A DNA stretch of 64,000 nucleotides, taken from contig NZ_JALPKO010000010.1 of assembly GCF_023195885.1 (NCBI RefSeq), forward strand, positions 36,665 through 100,664. Direction: 5' to 3'. Shown here in pieces: positions 20,735 through 36,747 of the stretch. The first letter of the stretch is position 1; each line of letters starts with the position of its first letter. Origin of the DNA: Methylonatrum kenyense (GTDB lineage Bacteria > Pseudomonadota > Gammaproteobacteria > Nitrococcales > Aquisalimonadaceae). Position numbers and translations under genes: made by a program. The notes under the pieces are model-generated. The model did not search any database and was not told the origin of the DNA. It saw only the letters and a list, made by a program, of their open reading frames with translations.

Positions 20735-21484
20735 CTACCGAACATCCTTCAGCCAATCGGGTTCGGGGTCGTAGCCGAAAGCGTCGAAGTCCGCTTTATA
20801 GATCGTTCGGATGCGCTCGGCGAGGGCCTTTGTGTAGACGGTATGCATACGTTCACTGGCGCCAGTCTTGTGGGGTGAATGGGATTGAAGTGTCTTGCGG
20901 CGAACACCGGTTGCCCGATGAAGAATTTCCGGCAGGTCTTGGGCAAGTGATTCGACCCGCCCGATTGCATGCAAGTACGCTGGTCCGCATGGAATCAAGT
21001 CGATTTGTCGGCACCAATGGGCGTCGGAGTCCAGTCCGCCTCGCTCCAGGAAATCGCAGAATTCGTCGAAGCCGATTGCCGCATCGTCGTCCGTTAGGTC
21101 CAGGCCGGAAAGTACCTTGGAGCGGCGATTACTTCGCTGGACCTTGTCCAGATAGGCGGACAATATGCGGCTGTAAGGGTCGCGGACCACGGTGAACAGG
21201 AAAAATCGCTCTCGGAGCCGGCTTACCTCCCACCACCAGAGTGCGCTTGGCCTAAGGAAGGCTTCCTTTTCCTTGGGCATGTCGATATCTGCACCTTCCT
21301 CTGCGTAACGCAGATTTCGAATCACCGTGGAATTGGCGGCCTTCGGAACTCGGAAATAGATGTAGGAAGGCTTACGCGAGACCGCGATGCGGCGATTGAC
21401 GCGCTCTGCCATATCCGGCGTTTTCGCCGGAAACCGTCGAAAGAACGGGGACCATGTGACGCGAAGCCGTGTCGTGAGGCCCAT
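20735..21484 (-). CDS. Carbohydrate sulfotransferase (Sulfotransfer_2-like)
   Basis: 249 residues. The 5'-phosphosulfate-binding loop is YFRVPKAANSTVIRNL near residue 45 and the 3'-phosphate-binding block is FTVVRDPYSRILSAYLDK near residue 120. Both are hallmarks of PAPS-dependent Golgi-type carbohydrate sulfotransferases and their bacterial relatives. There is no clear membrane segment, so it probably acts in the cytoplasm on a lipid-linked glycan or nucleotide sugar. The gene lies two bases after msbA on the same strand and 12 bases before a GT9 gene, tying it to LPS synthesis. The acceptor is unknown. Confidence 0.85.
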   Translation of the reverse strand: MGLTTRLRVTWSPFFRRFPAKTPDMAERVNRRIAVSRKPSYIYFRVPKAANSTVIRNLRYAEEGADIDMPKEKEAFLRPSALWWWEVSRLRERFFLFTVVRDPYSRILSAYLDKVQRSNRRSKVLSGLDLTDDDAAIGFDEFCDFLERGGLDSDAHWCRQIDLIPCGPAYLHAIGRVESLAQDLPEILHRATGVRRKTLQSHSPHKTGASERMHTVYTKALAERIRTIYKADFDAFGYDPEPDWLKDVR

Positions 21485-23412: not shown

Positions 23413-24039
23413 TCAGGCACTCAGGCTCTGCTCCAGCGCGTCGCCAAGAGCTACCGTATGGGCTGGCATGGAGCGAAGCATCCAGGCCGGATGCACGGCA
23501 ATAACCCGAAATCTGACGCGTTCCACTCCCAACAACTGGGCGACTGCCAGTCGGTGGTGGCCGTGCTTGAGCTTGATCAGGCGGCCATCGTGGCCGACGC
23601 CGAGGCCGATTCCGTTTTCCTCGTCCATTAGATAGCCATGTTGCTGGATACTGGTAATGAGGCTAACGACGTCTTCGTAATGCCTCCGTACCGCTGGCTC
23701 GCTGGAAAACGCCCTATTGCGGCGCATTTGAGGCAGCTGCGCGTGGCCTTTCTCGCGGAGCTGCGTCAGAGCCGCGCGAAAGCTGGGCAGGCGTTCATAG
23801 TCCAGATCGGCGGCCAGCAGCGTTTCAACTTCACGAAACGTCGGATGGTCCGCGAATGGCAGGACGAACCGATCCCAAAACCCCCGGCGAATTGGCCAGG
23901 GCAGCCCGTAATGCTCGTAGCGCGGCATCCACTTGAGGAAATCCGGGGGGCGTCGCCCAATGAGACCGACCCGCTTCGGGTCAAGCTCGATGACCGGGCA
24001 TCGGTCCTGGTTGCCCGCGATTGAGATGTCTCTCGCCAT
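23413..24039 (-). CDS. Hypothetical protein with ParB-like C-terminal motif
   Basis: 208 residues, no membrane segment or signal peptide. The C-terminal third has GHDGRLIKLKHGHHRLAVAQ followed by LLGVERVRFRVIAVHP. This resembles the ParB/sulfiredoxin core (G-x-HR-x3-A-x3-G), as in nuclease- or ATP-binding ParB-like proteins. The N-terminal part, rich in Arg and Trp, is not recognised. It is on the same strand as msbA, 132 bases upstream of it, and divergent from a GT2 gene. Proteins of this look recur in glycan loci, but the function is unknown and the fold call is by eye. Confidence 0.65.
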   Translation of the reverse strand: MARDISIAGNQDRCPVIELDPKRVGLIGRRPPDFLKWMPRYEHYGLPWPIRRGFWDRFVLPFADHPTFREVETLLAADLDYERLPSFRAALTQLREKGHAQLPQMRRNRAFSSEPAVRRHYEDVVSLITSIQQHGYLMDEENGIGLGVGHDGRLIKLKHGHHRLAVAQLLGVERVRFRVIAVHPAWMLRSMPAHTVALGDALEQSLSA

Positions 24040-27512: not shown

Positions 27513-28766
27513 CTATTTTAAAAACTGTGCGGCTCGTAGGTACCGTTCAGCGGCCCTTTCGACGGAGAATGATGCGGCCCGCGCGCTGAGTGAATCCCGG
27601 TTCGGACGCTTCGATAGAGCGCTAAGTATCCCTCCTGCAATAGCGTCTGGATCCTTCACTGGAACGAGGAAGCCGTGGCGGCCGTCTTCGAGAATCTCAC
27701 GGCTGCTTCCTGGGCAATCGGTAGCGACGATATTGACACCGAAATACAGTGCCTCGATTAAAACTGCCGGTAAACCCTCGTATATAGATGTCAGGGCGAA
27801 CACGTCGGAGTGGGCAATGTAGCTTCTCGCGTTTTCTTTATATCCGACGAAATCAACGATGTCGGCAATCCCAAGATCAGCAGCGCGCTGTTCGAGTTTC
27901 TCTTTTTGTGGGCCGTCACCGACGACAATCAATCGCATGGGTGTTGTTCTGGAACTTGTCGCGACTGCTTTAAGCAGGGAGAAGTAATCTTTCTGCTGGC
28001 GCAGGCGCCCGACGCTAACTATAACCGGATATTCTTTCGACTGGAGCCACGGGTGGTCGGGAACTCGGGCCGCATTCAACGAGTCCTCGTTTCGGTCGAT
28101 TACCGGGTTGTAGATCACGCAAAGCGGAAGATCCGAGGACGGGATGTTATTCGCGATATCGACCTTTAGCGTTTCTGATATGGCGATAACGGCATCGGCG
28201 GTTGGGTAGAGTTTCGCCATCAATGGAGGAAGATGGCGCCACCGCGCTTTCTTCGCGTGTTTTGGTTTGGTCAGCTTTTCGCTGAGAGGATTCCGTTCGC
28301 TGACGAGGACTCTTGTCTTCGAGTTTACCGCTTTTTTTGCCAAGAGGCTGGTGACGTTCTCGTAGGTGCCAGCGGATATCAGAAGATCCGGAGCGTGTGT
28401 CTCAAGGTAGTCGGCGAGCGCCGGGAGGTGGAGCACTCTCGCGCTTGGCTTGAGAGGAAGGAGGATTGGTCTCGCGACGAGGGGCCGCAGGCCTTTAAGC
28501 CGGGTGAAGATAAAAAACTTGGTTCGCGAGGCGCTACTTCTCGGAATGAATTGAAGGTTGATATTCGCCGGGATCATTGACGGCTCGATGCCATCCTTGT
28601 CAAAGACAACCATATCGACGAGATATCCGCGGCGGGCGTATTCATTGGCCAGACGCCATTGGCATCTGTCGACGCCGCCACCCTGCCCGATGAGGCCGCG
28701 GAGGTGGTCCGAGAGTACGGCGATACGCATTGGCTTGCCTGACGGCGTGATCCGGGGTTCGCTCAT
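27513..28766 (-). CDS. Glycosyltransferase family 4
   Basis: 417 residues, GT-B fold. MRIAVLSDHLRGLIGQGGGV is the N-terminal glycine loop. YPVIVSVGRLRQQKDYFSLL and RLIVVGDGPQKEKLEQRA are the C-domain nucleotide strands. EGLPAVLIEALYFGVNIVAT holds the acidic EX7E motif (Glu...Glu). ATG 28766 overlaps the upstream GT4 stop by four bases, but ATG 28730 (residue 13, MRIAV) is a possible start. It would add a sugar to a lipid-linked glycan or LPS core at the inner membrane. Confidence 0.88.
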   Translation of the reverse strand: MSEPRITPSGKPMRIAVLSDHLRGLIGQGGGVDRCQWRLANEYARRGYLVDMVVFDKDGIEPSMIPANINLQFIPRSSASRTKFFIFTRLKGLRPLVARPILLPLKPSARVLHLPALADYLETHAPDLLISAGTYENVTSLLAKKAVNSKTRVLVSERNPLSEKLTKPKHAKKARWRHLPPLMAKLYPTADAVIAISETLKVDIANNIPSSDLPLCVIYNPVIDRNEDSLNAARVPDHPWLQSKEYPVIVSVGRLRQQKDYFSLLKAVATSSRTTPMRLIVVGDGPQKEKLEQRAADLGIADIVDFVGYKENARSYIAHSDVFALTSIYEGLPAVLIEALYFGVNIVATDCPGSSREILEDGRHGFLVPVKDPDAIAGGILSALSKRPNRDSLSARAASFSVERAAERYLRAAQFLK

Positions 28767-29908
28767 GCTGGTCCTGCCCGAAATACGGCGAGTAGCTGGT
28801 CTTTGAGCTTTTCCTCCGTGAATCTGGCACTGGCCGAGCGTGACAGATTCTTTCCGCAGGTCTGCCGTTCGAAGGCGTCGGTTCGACGCGCGCGCGCCAG
28901 CAGGGCCGCAAGAGCGGGTGGGTCACGAGGCGGTGCCAGAAAATCGGACACATCTATCACCTCCGGCGTGCCACCACCTTCTACCCCGATCACCGGCAAT
29001 TCCGCTGCCATCGCCTCCAGGAACACGCGCGCGAAATTGTCACCCTCAGAGGGTAGGACAAAAACGTCGAACGCCCGCATCAGGCGGTTCGCCTTTGGCA
29101 GAAAACCGGTGAAAAGAGTGTGATGATCGATACCGAGCGCAATTGCCTCTTCGCGGAGTGCGAAGCCTTCCCGGCCATCACCGATAATGACCAGTCGGGC
29201 ATCAGGACTCTCCGGCAGGAGTATGGCAAAGGCCTGCAGCAGGTCTGTAATGCGCTTGTAGGGATCGAACCGGGCAATACAGCCGAAGACGAAGGCATCT
29301 GCCGTAAGGTTTAGCTGCTCACGCGCCGTTTGACGGTCCAGCATGCTGGCTTTTAGTGCGTCTGTGTCGATGTAGTTGTGAACGACATGGATCCGGTCGG
29401 GAAAATACCAGGGCATGTTCGCGCCGAAGCGATCCTTTTGTGCCTGGGTCAACGCGATTATTCCGGTCAGACGATTGCGGAACAGGCGGTACAGGCGCCG
29501 CCGGCTTGCGGAATCGGTCGCGTAATATCCACGCAGCAGTGCGTAGATCGGACCGTGGAAGCGGACAATCGCACTCGCCAGAAGCGCGCTGGCGACGCAC
29601 TTGTACTGGTCGGCGATGATTCGGTCCGGTTGGCGCTGGCGAAGGACGGCGGCGAGCCGCCAGGCGGTCCTGATGCGATTACGCTTGCTCTCGCGTTCGG
29701 TGAGGCCGAGGCCTATCACTGTGTCGTCTGGGTCGTCCGGAGCATATTCGGAGCCGTCACCGGTCAGAAAGCAAAGCGTGAGTCTGGCGCCCGCTTCCCG
29801 ATAGACCTTGAAATGCTCTCGGATATTGGCGCCCACATGGCCTTTTTTCTCCAGTACGATGAGCAGGTGCTGGCCTGCAAGCGGCGAGGCTTGAGTCGTT
29901 TCAGCCAT
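28763..29908 (-). CDS. Glycosyltransferase family 4
   Basis: 381 residues. The N-terminal half starts LLIVLEKKGHVGANIREHF. The C-terminal half has FVFGCIARFDPYKRITDLLQ, RLVIIGDGREGFALREEA and SEGDNFARVFLEAMAAELPV, whose EX7E-like acids bind the donor. It is the first gene of the GT4-GT4-(FkbM) group on this strand and divergent from a kinase-like gene, with 89 bases between starts. The donor sugar cannot be assigned. Confidence 0.88.
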   Translation of the reverse strand: MAETTQASPLAGQHLLIVLEKKGHVGANIREHFKVYREAGARLTLCFLTGDGSEYAPDDPDDTVIGLGLTERESKRNRIRTAWRLAAVLRQRQPDRIIADQYKCVASALLASAIVRFHGPIYALLRGYYATDSASRRRLYRLFRNRLTGIIALTQAQKDRFGANMPWYFPDRIHVVHNYIDTDALKASMLDRQTAREQLNLTADAFVFGCIARFDPYKRITDLLQAFAILLPESPDARLVIIGDGREGFALREEAIALGIDHHTLFTGFLPKANRLMRAFDVFVLPSEGDNFARVFLEAMAAELPVIGVEGGGTPEVIDVSDFLAPPRDPPALAALLARARRTDAFERQTCGKNLSRSASARFTEEKLKDQLLAVFRAGPA

Positions 29909-29997
29909 CAGTAAGCGGTCGCGCGTGTGCTGTCATCGATTTGTCATCCTGCCGTATCATTCAGGCACTCCACCATTTGTGCCCGGGAGGGCCACGC

Positions 29998-30840
29998 ATG
30001 ACATCCGGGCCGCCCACTCAGGCGCAGAGTCTACCAGTTAGCGTTCAGAATGAGCTTCTCAGGCGTTTGCAGCTGAGCGAGCTTCCCGTCGAGCATCTCG
30101 TGCGGGACGTGTTCGTGTTGCGCACGGAAGACCACGCGATGGTTGTGAAGCGGGCGGAGAGGCCGGAACAGGAAAGTCTCGTGAGCCGGGTTCTATTCGC
30201 CATTGGCTCGCCGGCTCTCGCGGTGGAGGATCTGGGGCAAGGGTGGATTTGCATGCCCTTCTGTGAAGCTCCGCCTGTCCGACTATTGGTCGAGTCTCGG
30301 GGAGAATCCCTGGACCAGACGGAGTTTTTTCATGCCCTGGGTAGGTCCTTGCCTCCGGCATTTCTACTGGGAATGCGGGACCGCAATTTGGATAACCTGT
30401 TATTCGACGAGTCGCATGGCCTGGCGCTGCACCTGGATTATGCGTCAGCTTTCCATGAGCCCTTGTGGCGGCGCCTCTGGGCGGGGCATCGCTTGCTGGG
30501 CTATCTGTACCGCAGGCTTTTCCTGGACCCACTGGTCAAGCTGGATGCGATAACTGATACGGCACCGACCGCTGTTCAGCAAGCGTTCCTTCAGGGGGTT
30601 ATGGACGAGCACATGCGAATTCGGACGCTGCCCCGGGCCGTCATTCGCGAGGTCGCCCCGGTGTTACGACGACCTTACCTTTCCACCGGGGTGGTGCAGG
30701 TGGGGAGGCTTCCGCGGGTTTGGCCTCGTGCCGCGAGGCTGGTGGAGCGGAAATACCTCTCCGGAATCAAGCGCTCACTGCGCGAACCACTGGCGCAGAA
30801 CCTCCGGCAGGGTAATCATTCGCTGCGTCCAGTCGCATAG
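29998..30840 (+). CDS. Compact PI3/PI4-kinase-like protein
   Basis: 280 residues from ATG 29998, preceded by CGGGAGGG. The frame is open to 29941 without a ribosome site. Lys51 (MVVKRAE) fits the ATP lysine. The segment AFLLGMRDRNLDNLLFDE (121-138) has the order of the PI3/PI4-kinase catalytic loop (LG-x-GDR-x2-DN), with Asp128 and Asn133. HLDYASAF (145-152) stands where these kinases have HIDFGxxF, Asp147 being the metal ligand. It lies inside the LPS cluster among three other kinases, so a phosphotransfer to a glycan or lipid is likely. Its last 25 bases overlap the end of a convergent sulfotransferase gene. This likeness is by motif reading, not by a search. Confidence 0.65.
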   Translation: MTSGPPTQAQSLPVSVQNELLRRLQLSELPVEHLVRDVFVLRTEDHAMVVKRAERPEQESLVSRVLFAIGSPALAVEDLGQGWICMPFCEAPPVRLLVESRGESLDQTEFFHALGRSLPPAFLLGMRDRNLDNLLFDESHGLALHLDYASAFHEPLWRRLWAGHRLLGYLYRRLFLDPLVKLDAITDTAPTAVQQAFLQGVMDEHMRIRTLPRAVIREVAPVLRRPYLSTGVVQVGRLPRVWPRAARLVERKYLSGIKRSLREPLAQNLRQGNHSLRPVA

Positions 30841-31649
30841 TCGAATCGGTGGTCGAGATTTTCCATGGCCTGCTCGATTCTGGCGACCTGTGGGCTGGTC
30901 AGGTAGTCAAGATAACCGCCAACGCGGCCCTTGCGGGCCTTGAATGACTCCGGGTCGTCAGCGTTGCCGGGTCTGAGGGCGCTCGGCGAGTTGCCGGAAA
31001 GCTGTTTTTCCCTGGCCTGCATGTTGTCGAAACGGCTATATCCCAACGCGTCGTCCAGGGCGTGCTGATCGATTTCGCCGTTCCCAAGGAACTCGATCAC
31101 GCGGCTGAACGTGCTGGTGGCTTGCTGGTGCATGGCCTCGTAACGGCACAGCAGGAGCCGGTTTTCCTGGTCTCCCCATTCCTCGAGCCAGCCATTCATT
31201 ACCTTGATGACGCGATCAACGCCGTATCGTTTGTCGTTGAGCATGTCGTCGATGCTGCCGTGAAACGTCTGGCTGCCCTTAACCCGGCGGGTATTCTGGA
31301 AATACAGGGATACCATAAGGTCCCGCGGGTCCCGGGCCAGCAGGAGAATCCTGGCGTTGCGACGGCGTTCCGGCGGTATCAGGTAACGGCCAATCAAGCG
31401 TTGCCACGGGTTGGCGATCGTCAGGTGGGAGTAGCGGTCGTGGGTGAACTGATAGGCCGGTCGCCCGTCAGCGTAGACGTCGCGCGAGTTCGGGGGCTCC
31501 ATGGACCCCAGAAGGCGACTGTAGTAGGCATGCAGGAAGACTCTAAGCCAGGTTCGGCCGGATTTCGGTATGGAGACAATGAAATGGCTCTTGCGCGTGA
31601 ACAGGCGTTGTTTCTCGCTCATGTTGCGCCAGTCGCGAAGTGGATTCAT
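30816..31649 (-). CDS. Sulfotransferase (Sulfotransfer_1-like)
   Basis: 277 residues. The PAPS 5'-phosphosulfate loop is FIVSIPKSGRTWLRVF near residue 25 and the 3'-phosphate site is LLARDPRDLMVSLYF near residue 110. RVGGYLDYLTSPQVARIEQA near the C-terminus corresponds to the RxGxxxD-type PAPS contact. It is unrelated in detail to the sulfotransferase at 20.7 kb. The start overlaps the stop of the upstream GT9 gene (ATGA). Sulfation of an LPS core or O-antigen sugar is inferred from the neighbours. Confidence 0.87.
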   Translation of the reverse strand: MNPLRDWRNMSEKQRLFTRKSHFIVSIPKSGRTWLRVFLHAYYSRLLGSMEPPNSRDVYADGRPAYQFTHDRYSHLTIANPWQRLIGRYLIPPERRRNARILLLARDPRDLMVSLYFQNTRRVKGSQTFHGSIDDMLNDKRYGVDRVIKVMNGWLEEWGDQENRLLLCRYEAMHQQATSTFSRVIEFLGNGEIDQHALDDALGYSRFDNMQAREKQLSGNSPSALRPGNADDPESFKARKGRVGGYLDYLTSPQVARIEQAMENLDHRFDYATGRSE

Positions 31650-32707
31650 GTCTGTGTGCCGGGAGAGTGGTCGAATGGCAGCCGTGTTCGAAAACGTTCT
31701 CCCGCTTCATCGATTGCCTGCAAAACGGCGTCCACCGGGATGCTGTCCATCCGGCGGCCGTCGGGGAAAGTTTTCTTGCCTTCGCTGGGAGGAATGGGTT
31801 CTGTCCCGCGGACGACAACCACTTGGTCAGTGAGAGGGCCCCAGCGCTCCGGATCTGTCGGACCGAAGAGCGCTACGATTGGCGTCCCGCTGGCTGCAGC
31901 CATGTGCATGGGGCCGCTATCGTTGCCAATGAAAAGCGCCGTGTTCCGGAACAGCCCGATCAGCGTGCCGATGTCGATTTTTTCCACCAGATCGATGGGC
32001 TTCGTCTGAGCCAGCGCACTAACCTGATCGGCAGCCCCTCGGTCCGGGCCCGCGCCGATTAGCAGCGGCTGCATGCCTCGGGCGTACAGCGCGTCGATCA
32101 GCTGCGCATAGCGGTCCAGTGGCCAATGCTTGTAGCTTTTACCCCCCGCCACATGCAGGCAGACCCACGGCCGGTCAACAGGTATCTGCTGTGTCTTCGC
32201 CACCTTTTGCAGGCGGGTGGCATCCTCGGGCAGTGCCGCCAACTCGGGTCGAGCCCAGCTCAAGTCAGGCTCGACAGCGCGACCAATGGCACCGTAGATG
32301 TCGATACGGTGCACGGTGTTCTCCGGCTTTCGAACATGTTCATTGAAACGGCGTGCGTAAGGGGCGCTATCCCTGCAGATGCGTCGTGGAGCGCCGCTGA
32401 ATGCCCCGACGGTGCCGCCGCTGCCGCTGCCGCCGAAATCCACCGCAATGGCTGGTTTCTGCGCTCTGACCCGCTGTAACAGCTTTGCGAAATTCCAGAA
32501 CTCCCGCAGGCGTCCGCCACCCCTTCCAAGTGTGAGCACCGGGCATTTCAATGCGGGCATGCGCTGGATCAGGGCAAGATGCGGCCCATGAACCACCAGC
32601 TGGCTTTGGCGGCGCGCCGCCAGCGCCGCCAGCACCGGGCTGGCGACAAGAAAGTTCCCCAGGTGCCTGTCCAGCATCAGCAATGTAATCGTTTCTCGTG
32701 GGCTCAC
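31646..32707 (-). CDS. Glycosyltransferase family 9
   Basis: 353 residues. LLMLDRHLGNFLVASPVLAA opens the protein, a variant of the GT9 start with HLGN in place of the usual SxGD. VCLHVAGGKSYKHWPLDRYA and LFIGNDSGPMHMAAASGTPI are the GT9 donor-binding blocks. It is probably a heptosyl- or hexosyltransferase of the LPS core. Starts 9 bases after the kinase gene stop, and overlaps the sulfotransferase gene, so kinases, GT9 and sulfotransferase form one operon. The missing acidic residue at the N-terminus (Asp in WaaC) is worth noting. Confidence 0.87.
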   Translation of the reverse strand: MSPRETITLLMLDRHLGNFLVASPVLAALAARRQSQLVVHGPHLALIQRMPALKCPVLTLGRGGGRLREFWNFAKLLQRVRAQKPAIAVDFGGSGSGGTVGAFSGAPRRICRDSAPYARRFNEHVRKPENTVHRIDIYGAIGRAVEPDLSWARPELAALPEDATRLQKVAKTQQIPVDRPWVCLHVAGGKSYKHWPLDRYAQLIDALYARGMQPLLIGAGPDRGAADQVSALAQTKPIDLVEKIDIGTLIGLFRNTALFIGNDSGPMHMAAASGTPIVALFGPTDPERWGPLTDQVVVVRGTEPIPPSEGKKTFPDGRRMDSIPVDAVLQAIDEAGERFRTRLPFDHSPGTQT

Positions 32708-32716
32708 TTCGTCTTC

Positions 32717-33508
32717 TCAGTTCAGGCTGACGGCTGCTCGACCATACCGTTTGCGATGGCGGCGGCTGATGGTGTCGATGGTTTCCGCGACGGCCGGCAA
32801 CAAGGACGCTTCGTCAAGCCCGCGGAGGGCGCAGTAGCGGCTGATGAAGTCCAGCGCCCAGTGCCGCTTCAGGCCCGCCTCCAGGCCGTTGGTCAGGAAG
32901 CGAGCGAGATCGCGTGCAACGGCGGGGCGTTCCGGTTTGCTGCAACGGCGTGCCCCGTCCAGGTCTGCGATAACGACGTCGCCGCAATCGGACCACAGTA
33001 TATTGCCCCACTTGAAGTCACGGTGGACGACATCGGCATCGTGCAATGCAGCCAGCGCGCGGGTGACTTTTTCTGTAATTGCCTCGGCTTCCGGCAAGGT
33101 GTTCGCCGCGAGATGGTCGTTGAAGCTCCTGCAGTGCTCCAGTGCCTCACAGAAAAACCAGCTCTCCCGTCTGCCGTCGAGATAGCCAACTGGGCGCGCA
33201 ATCGGTACACCGCGAGCGTGCAAATGCCGGGAAATATGCCAGACATGCCGCGCCCGGGAGGTGATTCCGAAGAATCCCAACATGCGGCGCCAGCCCTGGC
33301 GCGGATAGCGTTTGTAGAACAGTGAATATGGTGCATCCGGTGGCCGAATGAATCCGCTTTCCACGTCGGCGTCGTGTTTCAGCACGGTTCGCGGCCAATT
33401 TTGGAAACGTGGCGAGTCGCCCGCGAGGGCCCGCTGCAGGTCATGATCATTGATCACTTCGCCGCGGAATCCCGATGCACGCAGGGTAACGGTTTGCTTT
33501 GACATCAT
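32717..33508 (-). CDS. LPS core kinase (Kdo kinase/WaaP superfamily)
   Basis: 263 residues from ATG 33508 or 33505. Protein-kinase-like fold with SLFYKRYPRQGWRRM (ATP lysine region), the catalytic loop VVHRDFKWGNILW and the metal motif VVIADLDGARRC. The HRDFKxxNIL loop is that of the lipopolysaccharide kinase family, which phosphorylates Kdo or heptose in the inner core. It overlaps the upstream kinase gene by four bases, so two kinases are made from one transcript. The exact acceptor is unknown. Confidence 0.87.
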   Translation of the reverse strand: MMSKQTVTLRASGFRGEVINDHDLQRALAGDSPRFQNWPRTVLKHDADVESGFIRPPDAPYSLFYKRYPRQGWRRMLGFFGITSRARHVWHISRHLHARGVPIARPVGYLDGRRESWFFCEALEHCRSFNDHLAANTLPEAEAITEKVTRALAALHDADVVHRDFKWGNILWSDCGDVVIADLDGARRCSKPERPAVARDLARFLTNGLEAGLKRHWALDFISRYCALRGLDEASLLPAVAETIDTISRRHRKRYGRAAVSLN

Positions 33509-34323
33509 GACGCGCCGGCAGTGAAACGCGCCTTCGGACCGCCCCGTTGGTTCCGCTCTGCGCGGCGGACCTCGGTGGCCTGCATGAGATATTTGGCCAA
33601 CTCCGAAACCTCCGACCGACTCATTTCGCTGGTCTGCGCATACTTCAGCAGGAAGCGCAGCCGGCTGCTGCGCGAGAGGAATCGGGGACGCATCATGTTC
33701 AATTGCACAAGGTTCTTCCGCAGCCTTGCGTCGTTGTCGACTTTGCGGCTGGATTCGTTGTCGAGAAAGACGAAATTTCCACCGGGTCTTGGTGGTGACA
33801 GCAATACGTTACCCAGTCGCAGGTCCCCGTGCAGCCAACGCAGATGGTGCAGGCGTGCCACTTCCGCGGCGAATTCCCGTTGAACGGCCTGCCGATCCGT
33901 TACCGGCAGCAGCGGTGGTCCCAGGCGGCTCGAGATTAGCCGCGACAAGCTGTCGCCGGCCACCGCCCGCATCAGCAGGATCTCCCGCGTGCCATCCCAG
34001 CCGTGCGCCAACACCACTGGTGCATGGAAGCCGTCCGCTTCCAGTTCATGGCCACGCCGCACCGCGCGTACGCCACGGCTGCCGCGGAACAGGCTTTTCA
34101 ACAATTCCAGCGGGTCGCGTGGCAGGAACACCTTCAGCACCACATCCTCGCCCCGCCAGTGGCCGCGGGCGACACGGGCCTGGGCCGAACTGCTGAGTGC
34201 ATGCCAGCCGGACGGCGGTTCGCCGTTCAGCAATTGCCGGGCGACCATACGTAGGTCTCTGGGCAGGGGTTCGATACCCGGAATACTGGGACGAAAACCG
34301 AGCCAGGCGAGCAGGCGGGTCAT
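33505..34323 (-). CDS. Kinase of the LPS kinase superfamily
   Basis: 272 residues from ATG 34323. The frame stays open to 34620 through repeat sequence, which I exclude. WRGEDVVLKVFLPRDP holds the ATP lysine, LRWLHGDLRLGNVLLS the catalytic loop (Asp and Asn present) and NFVFLDNESSRKV the metal site, where the usual DFD or DLD reads LDNE. It is the first gene of the kinase-kinase-GT9-sulfotransferase operon and is separated from waaP by a 469-base palindromic repeat island. Confidence 0.82.
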   Translation of the reverse strand: MTRLLAWLGFRPSIPGIEPLPRDLRMVARQLLNGEPPSGWHALSSSAQARVARGHWRGEDVVLKVFLPRDPLELLKSLFRGSRGVRAVRRGHELEADGFHAPVVLAHGWDGTREILLMRAVAGDSLSRLISSRLGPPLLPVTDRQAVQREFAAEVARLHHLRWLHGDLRLGNVLLSPPRPGGNFVFLDNESSRKVDNDARLRKNLVQLNMMRPRFLSRSSRLRFLLKYAQTSEMSRSEVSELAKYLMQATEVRRAERNQRGGPKARFTAGAS

Positions 34324-34336
34324 CGGTGCCACCAGT

Positions 34337-34787
34337 GGGTGGGTTTTCGGACAGAAAAGGTTTTCGGTTTTCGGACCAAACCAGGAATAGCCCGTGCCAC
34401 CCGGATTGCCATGGCGTTTTCGTCTATGGCGTAGGGTGGAATAAGCGAAGCGATTCCACGCGGTGTGATCCCCCCCGAGCAGTCCACCCACGTCCACGCG
34501 ACACGACGCATGGCCGATTCGGCGTATGTGGTAACCGGCGATTTCGTGATTCGCATGTTGGTCAGATGGGCCGTGGGTTTTCGGACAACGAAGGTTTTCG
34601 GACAAGGAAGAGCGGCGCACCGTTTCCGAAAACCTTTTTTGTCGTCATTCCGCTCATCCGCGTGGATCCGCTGCGCTTGATCCACCCTACGAAAACCACG
34701 GAGACATCGCGCCGATTCCGATGCCCTGGATATCCCTTGACCTGGTCCGAAAACCGAAAACCTTCGTTGTCCGAAAACCCATCCCAC
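34337..34787 (+). repeat. Palindromic repeat island between waaP and the kinase operon
   Basis: The ends are near-perfect inverted repeats. 34341-34377 reads GGGTTTTCGGACA, AAAAGGTTTTCGG, TTTTCGGACC, and 34744-34780 carries the same order reversed and complemented. REP-A units at 34429-34470 and 34657-34691 lie about 88 bases inside each end, also inverted. A further TTTTCGGACAACGAAGG tandem pair is at 34576-34608. The island fills almost the whole gap and could fold into a long cruciform. No coding frame is convincing. Confidence 0.75.
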
Positions 34788-34792
34788 GCCCA

Positions 34793-35614
34793 TCACCCGT
34801 GCTCCTTGCGGTACTGCCAGCGGGCGCGCTCGGCGACGGCGCGCCAGAGGGCGGCGTCTTCCTCCAGGGTGTGGCGCAGGGGTTTGCCGGTGTAGAGCCG
34901 CATGAAGCGGAACAGGTCGCGGTCGCGCAGGCCGATGTCCATGGCCGAGAAATACAGGCCGCCGATGTCCTTGACCCGCGCCCGCATCGACAGTTTCTGG
35001 AAGCGTTGCACACGGTGCAGGTCCATCAGGTGCAGGCGCAGCGGCGAGTCCGGGTCCTTGCGCGGGTCGGCGCCGTTCAGGTCCAGCCGGAAATGGCAGA
35101 GGTAGAAATCCCGGTGGTGCAGGCCGTCCTGGTGCAGGATCCGGGCGATACGCGCGACCTCGCGGGTCAGGCGCAGCCGGAAATGCGCCGCCGGTGGCCG
35201 CTGGGGCCAGGCCAGGCATTCGTTCTCCAGGGTGATGGTCCGGCCCAGGTCGGCGGTGACGACAAAGGATTGCCGGCGGGCCGGGTTCCACTGGCTGCGA
35301 CGGCCGTAGGCCACCGGTGGCGTGGTCTGGATGCCGAGTGCGCGCAGGCGGTGGATGGCGGCCCATTCCCGTTCGGCGCCCAGCACCGGGATCCGGAACT
35401 GCAGCAGCTTGCGCAGGATGCGCGGCCAGGGCATGCCGTTATGGGTCTTGGCGAAATACCAGTGATCGCCAAGCTGGAAGCGGAAGGTGCGGCGTCCGTC
35501 CACCGCGCGGACCACATCGCCGTCCAGCCTCATGACCGCATCGAAGGGATCACCCGGCGGCAGCGCGGCGCGGAAGGCCGGCTCCATCTGCAATTCGTCG
35601 TGGCGCCGGATCAT
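34793..35614 (-). CDS. waaP: LPS core heptose(I) kinase
   Basis: 273 residues from ATG 35614, matching the 265 of E. coli WaaP. HWYFAKTHNGMPWPRILRKL holds the ATP lysine, HHRDFYLCHF the catalytic loop and LHLMDLHRVQRF the metal site. These are signature strings of WaaP, which phosphorylates heptose I and is needed for outer-membrane stability. It overlaps waaG by four bases (ATGA), giving waaF-waaG-waaP in one operon, as in Pseudomonas. No waaC lies beside it. Confidence 0.95.
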   Translation of the reverse strand: MIRRHDELQMEPAFRAALPPGDPFDAVMRLDGDVVRAVDGRRTFRFQLGDHWYFAKTHNGMPWPRILRKLLQFRIPVLGAEREWAAIHRLRALGIQTTPPVAYGRRSQWNPARRQSFVVTADLGRTITLENECLAWPQRPPAAHFRLRLTREVARIARILHQDGLHHRDFYLCHFRLDLNGADPRKDPDSPLRLHLMDLHRVQRFQKLSMRARVKDIGGLYFSAMDIGLRDRDLFRFMRLYTGKPLRHTLEEDAALWRAVAERARWQYRKEHG

Positions 35615-36747
35615 TCCGCCACCTCGCCATACTTCGGACCCTCGATCACCCGCACCGCGTGTTCGGCCCGGTTGCCGAGCTCGGTTTCGGCGGCGTAGGC
35701 AAGGGCGTTGGCACGCCATGCGTCGCGCTGCTTGCTGTCCAGCATTTCGCTCAGCGCCCGGTCCAGGGTCTCCTGCCGGAACGGCTCCGCGATCACCTGG
35801 CCGCATTCGGCTGCGCTGACATGCGCGGCATAACCGCAGTTTCCCGTGACCAGCGCGGGCAGTCCGGCGGCAATGGCCTCGACGATGGCGGTGCCGGTGT
35901 TCTCCTGGTAGGCCACATGCAGCAACAGGTCGGCGGCGAACAGGAAATCGGGCACGTCATCCCGGCCCTGCAGCAGATGTACCTGCTCGGCAAGGCCAAG
36001 CCGGCTTGCCAGACGACGGATCGGCCCGGGTTGGCCCTTGCCCAGCACATAAAGCTGGCTGCGTTGGCGCTTAGCATCGGGCAGGGCAGCCAGCGCGCGG
36101 ACCGCGCGGTCCACGCCCTTGCGCCGGTAGTCGGAGCCGACCATCAGCAGCAGCCGCTGATCGTCCGCAAGCCCGAGGTCTTGCCGCATCCGCCTGCGAC
36201 GTTCCGGATAATCGGCCGGCGCGAAGCGGTCCGGCGAGACATAGGGTGGCATCGGCCGGAAACGGTCGGGCCGCGTGTTGTACCAGTGCTGGAACAGCGG
36301 CTGCTCGGCCGGCGACAGCAGCAGGATGTGGTTGCGGGTGTTGGCCGCGAACACCGCCTGCTCGAAGGCGGCGAGCTGCTTGAAGCGCGCCGAGCGGCGA
36401 TACAGCCAGCCGCGGTGCATGGCCCGGTGCATCAGGCAGGGGTCGGCGTTGTAGTAGACGTCCAGCCCCGGCAGTTTGTTGAAGCCGACGATCCTGTCAT
36501 AGCCTCCCTGTCGCAGTCGCGGCTCCAGGGCCTCGGCGAAGCGGCGATAGCGTACGTGGTTGCGCCAGCCCCCCACCTCGACCCGTTCGATCCGCAGTGC
36601 CGGATGGCTCGGGTCCCAGCCCTCCCAGGCCAGCGTGAAGACGTCCACCTCATGACCGTGGGCCAGACACAGTTCGGTGATGCGCCGGAAATTGCGCTGC
36701 AGGCCGCCGTGGGGGAAATACTTGAACAGCAGTAGCGCCAGCCGCAT
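35611..36747 (-). CDS. waaG: LPS core glucosyltransferase I
   Basis: 378 residues from ATG 36747; E. coli WaaG has 374. MRLALLLFKYFPHGGLQRNF is the typical N-terminal loop, YYNADPCLMHRAMHRGW a WaaG hallmark, and YQENTGTAIVEAIAAGLPAL carries the EX7E donor motif. It adds glucose to heptose II of the inner core, using UDP-glucose at the cytoplasmic face of the inner membrane. Start and stop overlap waaF and waaP respectively. Confidence 0.95.
   Translation of the reverse strand: MRLALLLFKYFPHGGLQRNFRRITELCLAHGHEVDVFTLAWEGWDPSHPALRIERVEVGGWRNHVRYRRFAEALEPRLRQGGYDRIVGFNKLPGLDVYYNADPCLMHRAMHRGWLYRRSARFKQLAAFEQAVFAANTRNHILLLSPAEQPLFQHWYNTRPDRFRPMPPYVSPDRFAPADYPERRRRMRQDLGLADDQRLLLMVGSDYRRKGVDRAVRALAALPDAKRQRSQLYVLGKGQPGPIRRLASRLGLAEQVHLLQGRDDVPDFLFAADLLLHVAYQENTGTAIVEAIAAGLPALVTGNCGYAAHVSAAECGQVIAEPFRQETLDRALSEMLDSKQRDAWRANALAYAAETELGNRAEHAVRVIEGPKYGEVAE

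Follow-up and report, generated by a model that had tools for sequence, protein, structure and literature searches.

A rare, compact kinase-like protein with a PI3K/PIKK-like catalytic loop in a lipopolysaccharide-core gene cluster

Within a lipopolysaccharide (LPS)-core gene cluster of Methylonatrum kenyense, we found a gene for a 280-aa protein which is best read as a new, rare and minimal family of the protein-kinase-like (PKL) superfamily in a known setting. On balance, we favour reading it as an ATP-dependent phosphotransferase of the cytoplasm, minimal in its protein-kinase-like fold and fourth among the kinases of the cluster, which likely acts on a core sugar or on a glycan made by the GT9 and GT4 enzymes; judging from the position of the gene, the substrate is probably a core sugar. 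The gene lies in a 64,000-nucleotide stretch of contig NZ_JALPKO010000010.1, which we will refer to as the window and whose coordinates are used throughout.

The open reading frame runs on the forward strand from an ATG at 29998 to a stop codon at 30838-30840. It is a genuine coding gene, since its G+C content by codon position (0.70/0.43/0.69) is like that of its neighbours and its divergence from the one ortholog (see below) amounts to dN 0.48 against dS 1.49 over 271 codons (dN/dS ~0.32); on the same sequence comparison, it is under purifying selection. The translated product contains AFLLGMRDRNLDNLL and HLDYASAF, and translation places K51, D128, N133 and D147 exactly where an earlier note, made from the letters of the window alone, had put them. 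The features of the gene are as follows:

29998..30840, + strand: gene for the compact, atypical kinase-like protein, 280 aa (open reading frame, translation, ortholog, purifying selection)
30148..30150, + strand: codon of Lys51, putative ATP-binding lysine of strand beta3 (VVKRA), invariant in the ortholog and in a predicted strand (47-52)
30172..30174, + strand: codon of Glu59, candidate alphaC ion-pair acid at Lys51 +8, invariant in the ortholog and in a predicted helix (56-68)
30358..30399, + strand: catalytic-loop block A121-D128-R-N-L-D-N133-L (AFLLGMRDRNLDNL), covered by the PF00454 match (122-154) and the PDB profile matches (121-154)
30430..30453, + strand: metal-loop block HLDYASAF containing Asp147, which pairs with HIDYNVCF in the SMG1 alignment; H145, D147 and Y148 invariant in the ortholog
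30481..30546, + strand: most conserved C-lobe block AGHRLLGYLYRRLFLDPLVKLD, residues 162-183, near-identical in the ortholog

D128 and N133 are 5 residues apart and N133 and D147 are 14 apart, a spacing which aligns without gaps with SMG1, TEL1, mTOR and ATR and thus bears out the PI3/PI4-kinase loop spacing that the earlier note had recognised. Together with K51 and E59, these residues follow the order of the key residues of the PKL superfamily (a concept set out in PMC1821047), and all five are invariant in the ortholog. The PIKK domain P0002 has an Asp at +8 from its lysine, an offset matching that of E59. The protein is unusually compact, as K51 and D128 are 77 residues apart, compared with 112 in WaaP (K51-D163; PMC6147952) and 157 in P0002. 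No Gly-rich loop is recognisable in it. A DPLV motif close to the C-terminal end of P0002 lines up with block 162-183, which is suggestive only. The C-terminus of the 280-aa protein is basic (WPRAARLxxRKYLxGIxR) and may contact the membrane or the anionic lipid A-core.

We found the ortholog by scanning prokaryotic genomes (257 Gb) with a degenerate DNA pattern, DR[NH]xxN-hyd-hyd-x9-H-hyd-D-[YF]. Thirteen loci were returned, one of them a true ortholog (L028) in Thioalkalivibrio sp. ALJ21 (Ectothiorhodospiraceae; henceforth ALJ21). Ten of the 13 were inspected (those other than L019, L021 and L024), and among these ten the motif stood in a kinase frame only in L028 and L025. The latter (L025:1-7647) belongs to the ‘bacterium TMED88’ MAG; its 2548-aa product is a eukaryote-type PIKK, and the contig is most likely eukaryotic contamination of the bin. 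The ALJ21 ortholog is full-length, with 50% identity over 269 aa (E 5e-81), and shares K51, E59, D128, R129, N130, N133, H145, D147 and Y148; matches at the catalytic-loop and metal-loop residues arise by construction, as the pattern required them (with Asn or His at position 130), and K51, E59 and the full-length similarity were not demanded by it. Residues 110-180 are 73% identical against 48% overall, identity being 65-90% across residues 121-180 and 90% in residues 161-180.

Protein searches of genomes from the order (54), the class (369) and the phylum (398), as well as of phages, plasmids and viral contigs, returned zero further relatives, and no other family member was found in 46 relatives of ALJ21 or in the window's own order. 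One set of peptide patterns left out the catalytic loop and did not recover the ortholog in ALJ21, so nulls from that method are weak. With the GT4 neighbour as a cluster marker (E 1e-60), the window genome was the sole match. The known members are two only, and the gene is dispensable, given that relatives of both hosts are without it. Several candidates were set aside, namely weak class and phylum matches in low-scoring short segments, taken as chance (L002, L003 and L018), and PF00454 matches in class genomes belonging to HipA-like ‘GNxDRHxxN’ kinases (L004, L005, L007, L010 and L016) or to an ePK-like protein (L006), all unlinked to this family. The protein has no match in PADLOC, PHROG or NCBIfam, for which reason a defence or phage role was dropped, and no paper describing the family was found among open full texts.

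We compared the protein with the known kinase groups at the level of sequences and profiles. PF00454 is its top Pfam family (17.3 bits, E 0.0046), below the gathering cut-off (17.3 and 12.0 bits against 27.1) and with only 33 of 241 profile positions matched (142-174); the similarity to PI3K/PIKK proteins is confined to one block of 33-46 residues. The metal loop has the HxD[FY] form of this family (H145-L-D147-Y148, 14 residues past the Asn), and in both members the catalytic loop reads D128-R-N130, with Asn replacing the His of DxH. A profile of the two sequences searched against the PDB, which is free of motif-retrieval bias, gave 28 matches up to E 10, all 28 of them PIKKs (best SMG1, E 0.0047) and none a UbiB, WaaP or APH protein. 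In hhalign profile-profile comparisons, the score was 42.1 for the PIKK domain (maximum over 150 column shuffles 22.5), a value biased upward since P0002 came from the scan with the protein's own motif; 38.8 for a LanM-like protein, given without shuffles; 35.9 for a UbiB pair (shuffle maximum 27.4); 26.2 for a phage kinase-like pair (26.7); 18.8 for a HipA-like protein (21.2; hhalign probability 0.6, with 5 of 150 shuffles as good); and 16.3 for WaaP/Kdo (24.0; probability 0.3, with 26 of 150 as good). By these maxima, the PIKK and UbiB signals stand above noise and the HipA-like and WaaP signals do not.

Considering the top Pfam rank, the uniformly PIKK matches in the PDB and an hhalign score well above its shuffles, the motif resemblance is more than chance, and these comparisons support a loop closest to the PI3K-related group and away from WaaP and HipA-like proteins. 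The earlier note's view of a kinase from a different subfamily than its WaaP neighbours is supported, and WaaP, one of the best matches that it had named as telling against its proposal, scores below the PIKK domain. Its label of a compact PI3/PI4-kinase-like protein in an LPS cluster holds for kinase-like, compact and LPS cluster, and membership of PF00454 is not borne out, given the score, the short match and the DxN. We suggest that ‘PI3/PI4-kinase-like’ should here mean resemblance only, because the Pfam cut-off is missed, one block is involved, His is replaced by Asn, and UbiB and LanM (DUF4135) proteins match the block too. Spacing alone does not define PI3K, as UbiB has the same D-N-D spacing; R129 and H145 favour PI3K/PIKK, and N130 favours UbiB. 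As a separate observation, two viral contigs (L032:6218-6832 and L033:7049-7720) encode proteins of 204-223 aa with a Gly-rich start, a lysine and DRHNNNVLYNKMTGRPKHIDFG, which are sub-threshold to PF00454 and ABC1 and possibly form a small phage kinase-like family.

A single-sequence AlphaFold2 (AF2) model was unusable (pLDDT 36.7), and the model from the two-sequence alignment reached a mean pLDDT of 41.7, with about 40-80 in the N-lobe (about 55-80 in residues 11-60) and <50 in the C-lobe. It places a helix at 14-24, strands at 31-35, 38-42 and 47-52 (with K51), helix alphaC at 56-68 (with E59) and strands at 77-80 and 83-87, then helices, an order (beta-beta-beta-alphaC-beta-beta) that outlines, with low confidence, the N-lobe of a kinase. 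Among the matches listed by Foldseek for this model, the leading ones are kinase folds, with Vps34 first (E 5.5e-3), then APH(2''), RIO1 and protein kinases, and WbdD lower; TM-scores were near 0.2-0.3. No match reaches E 0.001. The model offers support for a kinase fold and not proof of it; taken with the motif residues, it makes the protein-kinase-like fold class likely.

The surroundings of the gene are those of LPS-core synthesis, with neighbours as follows:

28763..29908, - strand: GT4 glycosyltransferase, divergent neighbour (Pfam; 64% identity to its ALJ21 counterpart)
29909..29997, no strand: divergent intergenic region of 89 bp between the GT4 gene and the 280-aa gene; ALJ21 has a matching divergent layout
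30816..31649, - strand: sulfotransferase (PF00685, E 4.8e-22), convergent, with a 25-bp overlap with the 280-aa gene; absent at the equivalent ALJ21 place
31646..32707, - strand: GT9 heptosyltransferase-family protein (Pfam; 62% identity to ALJ21)
32717..33508, - strand: Kdo/WaaP-family kinase, third of the cluster (PF06293, E 1.8e-10; 55% identity to ALJ21)
33505..34413, - strand: second Kdo/WaaP-family kinase of the cluster, with an approximate start (PF06293, E 6.2e-6; 52% identity to ALJ21)
34793..35806, - strand: WaaP (RfaP) heptose(I) kinase (NF011703, 337 bits; 68% identity to ALJ21), whose true start is probably downstream of the ATG listed

The three WaaP/Kdo-family kinase genes (PF06293, NF011703) confirm the WaaP-type kinases which the earlier note had seen nearby. 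The window and ALJ21 share the order GT9, GT4, WaaP, Kdo-kinase 2, Kdo-kinase 3, GT9, the 280-aa gene reversed, GT4, GT4 and, farther on, WaaL (second GT4 39% and WaaL 33% identical). That this order is kept at the divergence between the two argues for a role of the gene in LPS-core synthesis. Opposite to the biosynthetic operon in both genomes, the gene may have separate regulation; no sigma-70 consensus match was found in 29909..29997. LPS-core loci of Pseudomonas aeruginosa likewise hold several kinases, i.e., waaP, wapP and wapQ (PMC6147952).

Three further observations concern the cluster itself. It contains two sulfotransferase genes of different Pfam families (20735-21484 and 30816-31649), and ALJ21 also has two, farther along and of a Pfam family other than the one beside the window's 280-aa gene, so sulfation of the surface glycan is possible. 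Direct and inverted repeats with a unit of 28-42 nt (GTGGGTTTTCGGACA...GGTTTTCGG) lie between waaP and the next kinase gene (34337-34784); one inverted pair of 28 nt is 100% complementary, and the whole looks like a repeat element. A 208-aa protein encoded at 23413-24039 has no Pfam match at E 0.001, and its C-terminus (KHGHHRLAVAQLLGVERV) resembles, by eye, a ParB-type domain.

We favour the phosphotransferase reading because the catalytic residues are invariant, the loop is PIKK-like and both genomes keep the gene at one place in the LPS cluster; the low mean pLDDT (41.7), the two members, the reversed gene, the lack of a Gly-rich loop and the DxN weaken it. In such an enzyme, K51, held by E59, would orient ATP, N133 and D147 would bind Mg, and D128 would activate the hydroxyl of the acceptor, which is likely either a nascent lipid A-core sugar or the glycan produced by the GT9 and GT4 enzymes encoded nearby. 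The reaction would take place on the cytoplasmic side of the inner membrane; that the protein is active, uses ATP, has such an acceptor and contacts the membrane are predictions. As a tentative possibility, which we rate as unlikely, the protein would be a minimal, free-standing branch of the PI3K/PIKK lineage in bacteria, phosphorylating a glycolipid (LPS core).

Other explanations take the same observations differently. The nearest sequence matches are PIKKs, i.e., protein kinases, the profile also finds UbiB proteins, and the gene is divergently oriented and accessory, all of which would suit a PIKK-, HipA- or UbiB-style protein kinase or regulator whose target is an LPS-synthesis protein and not a sugar. 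We judge this unlikely, as the gene is fixed in a biosynthetic cluster beside sugar kinases and glycosyltransferases, no regulator partner or antitoxin gene adjoins it, and the HipA-like comparison stays at shuffle level. A true lipid kinase of the PI3K/PI4K kind, acting on phospholipid or on lipid A, is highly improbable, even with PF00454 and Vps34 as top matches and a basic C-terminus that could touch the membrane: the Pfam match is sub-cut-off and short, the catalytic His has become Asn in both members, and the profile is nearer to protein PIKKs than to lipid kinases. Phosphoinositides are not known to be usual in gammaproteobacteria, and a lipid (inositol) kinase role is unlikely.

The loss of the PI3K His, the unclear Gly-rich loop and a most conserved stretch that takes in a non-catalytic C-lobe block (161-180) could also reflect a pseudokinase scaffold for the core glycosyltransferases. 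We consider this quite improbable: at 50% overall identity, the ortholog preserves all five residues (K, E, D, N, D) general to kinases, whose retention a pseudokinase would not require. Very doubtful, finally, is the idea that this is no kinase but an unrelated helical protein whose loops match by local chance; the similarity does lie in one block and the model is poor beyond the N-lobe, but the motif falls in the best conserved region, shuffled controls never attain the hhalign score, and the predicted N-lobe puts K51 in a strand and E59 in the next helix.

Phosphates on the LPS core hold the outer membrane together, and the core-phosphate kinases known from Pseudomonas-type loci belong to the WaaP/Kdo family. 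If the phosphotransferase reading is true, a further conserved enzyme of kinase-like type, from a subfamily other than WaaP/Kdo, would point to an unrecognised LPS-core modification, a claim limited by the rarity of the family and its predicted-only activity. As a bacterial branch of the PI3K/PIKK lineage, it would be a relative of a kinase group, PI3K, which a 2007 survey of the microbial kinome considered eukaryote-specific and, key motifs aside, unlike other families in sequence (PMC1821047). If the PIKK resemblance reflects descent, the family would provide a small bacterial model for a group nearly without a sequence link to other kinases (PMC1821047).

Varied kinase-like enzymes occur in LPS loci, as illustrated by WbdD and Lcin_0519-type O-antigen kinase-methyltransferases (PMC9758233); the 280-aa protein shares this setting but has no methyltransferase or coiled-coil domain, and the Lcin_0519 family is without alphaC (PMC9758233). 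With the WaaP/Kdo kinases (PF06293; structure in PMC6147952) it shares genomic context inside an LPS-core cluster, likely substrate class and, by prediction, the general kinase fold; unlike them, it has no PF06293 match up to E 10, no above-shuffle profile match, no HRD or DLH motif and a shorter K-to-D distance. The UbiB/ABC1 (ADCK) atypical kinases resemble it in D-x-N-x-x-N, the D-N-D spacing and a weak profile match, above shuffles and below PIKK, whereas it lacks a PF03109 match, the KxGQ motif (present in UbiB proteins L037 and L038) and a quinone context, has HxD and not LLD before the metal Asp, and is 280 aa long against 450.

The LanM kinase domain (DUF4135, PF13575), exemplified by the dehydration domain of CylM, is bacterial and has a lipid-kinase fold without notable sequence similarity (PMC4550811). 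It offers a similar block, ‘FFxxLGRxLxxAxLxGxxDRxxxNxxF’, and differs in that the 280-aa protein has no PF13575 match, fused LanC cyclase or peptide cluster; the DxH motif, whose catalytic role in PIKK and LanM has been described (PMC4550811), is kept in LanM and lost here, and the second-Asp spacing is two residues shorter in the LanM-like match. A gammaproteobacterium with a 1.9-Mb genome (L043:1-2415) encodes a large protein with a DUF4135 (LanM-type) kinase domain and a catalytic block similar to that of the 280-aa protein. Compared with the PIKKs (SMG1, TEL1, mTOR and ATR; PF00454), the protein has a shorter K-to-D distance (77 against 157 in P0002), DxN instead of DxH, no FAT, FATC or FRB regions, a sub-cut-off Pfam score and a bacterial LPS setting, but it shares with them Gxx-DR-x-x-x-N ... 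H-[IL]-D-[YF] at identical spacing, a lysine with an acid at +8 and the predicted start of a bilobal kinase.
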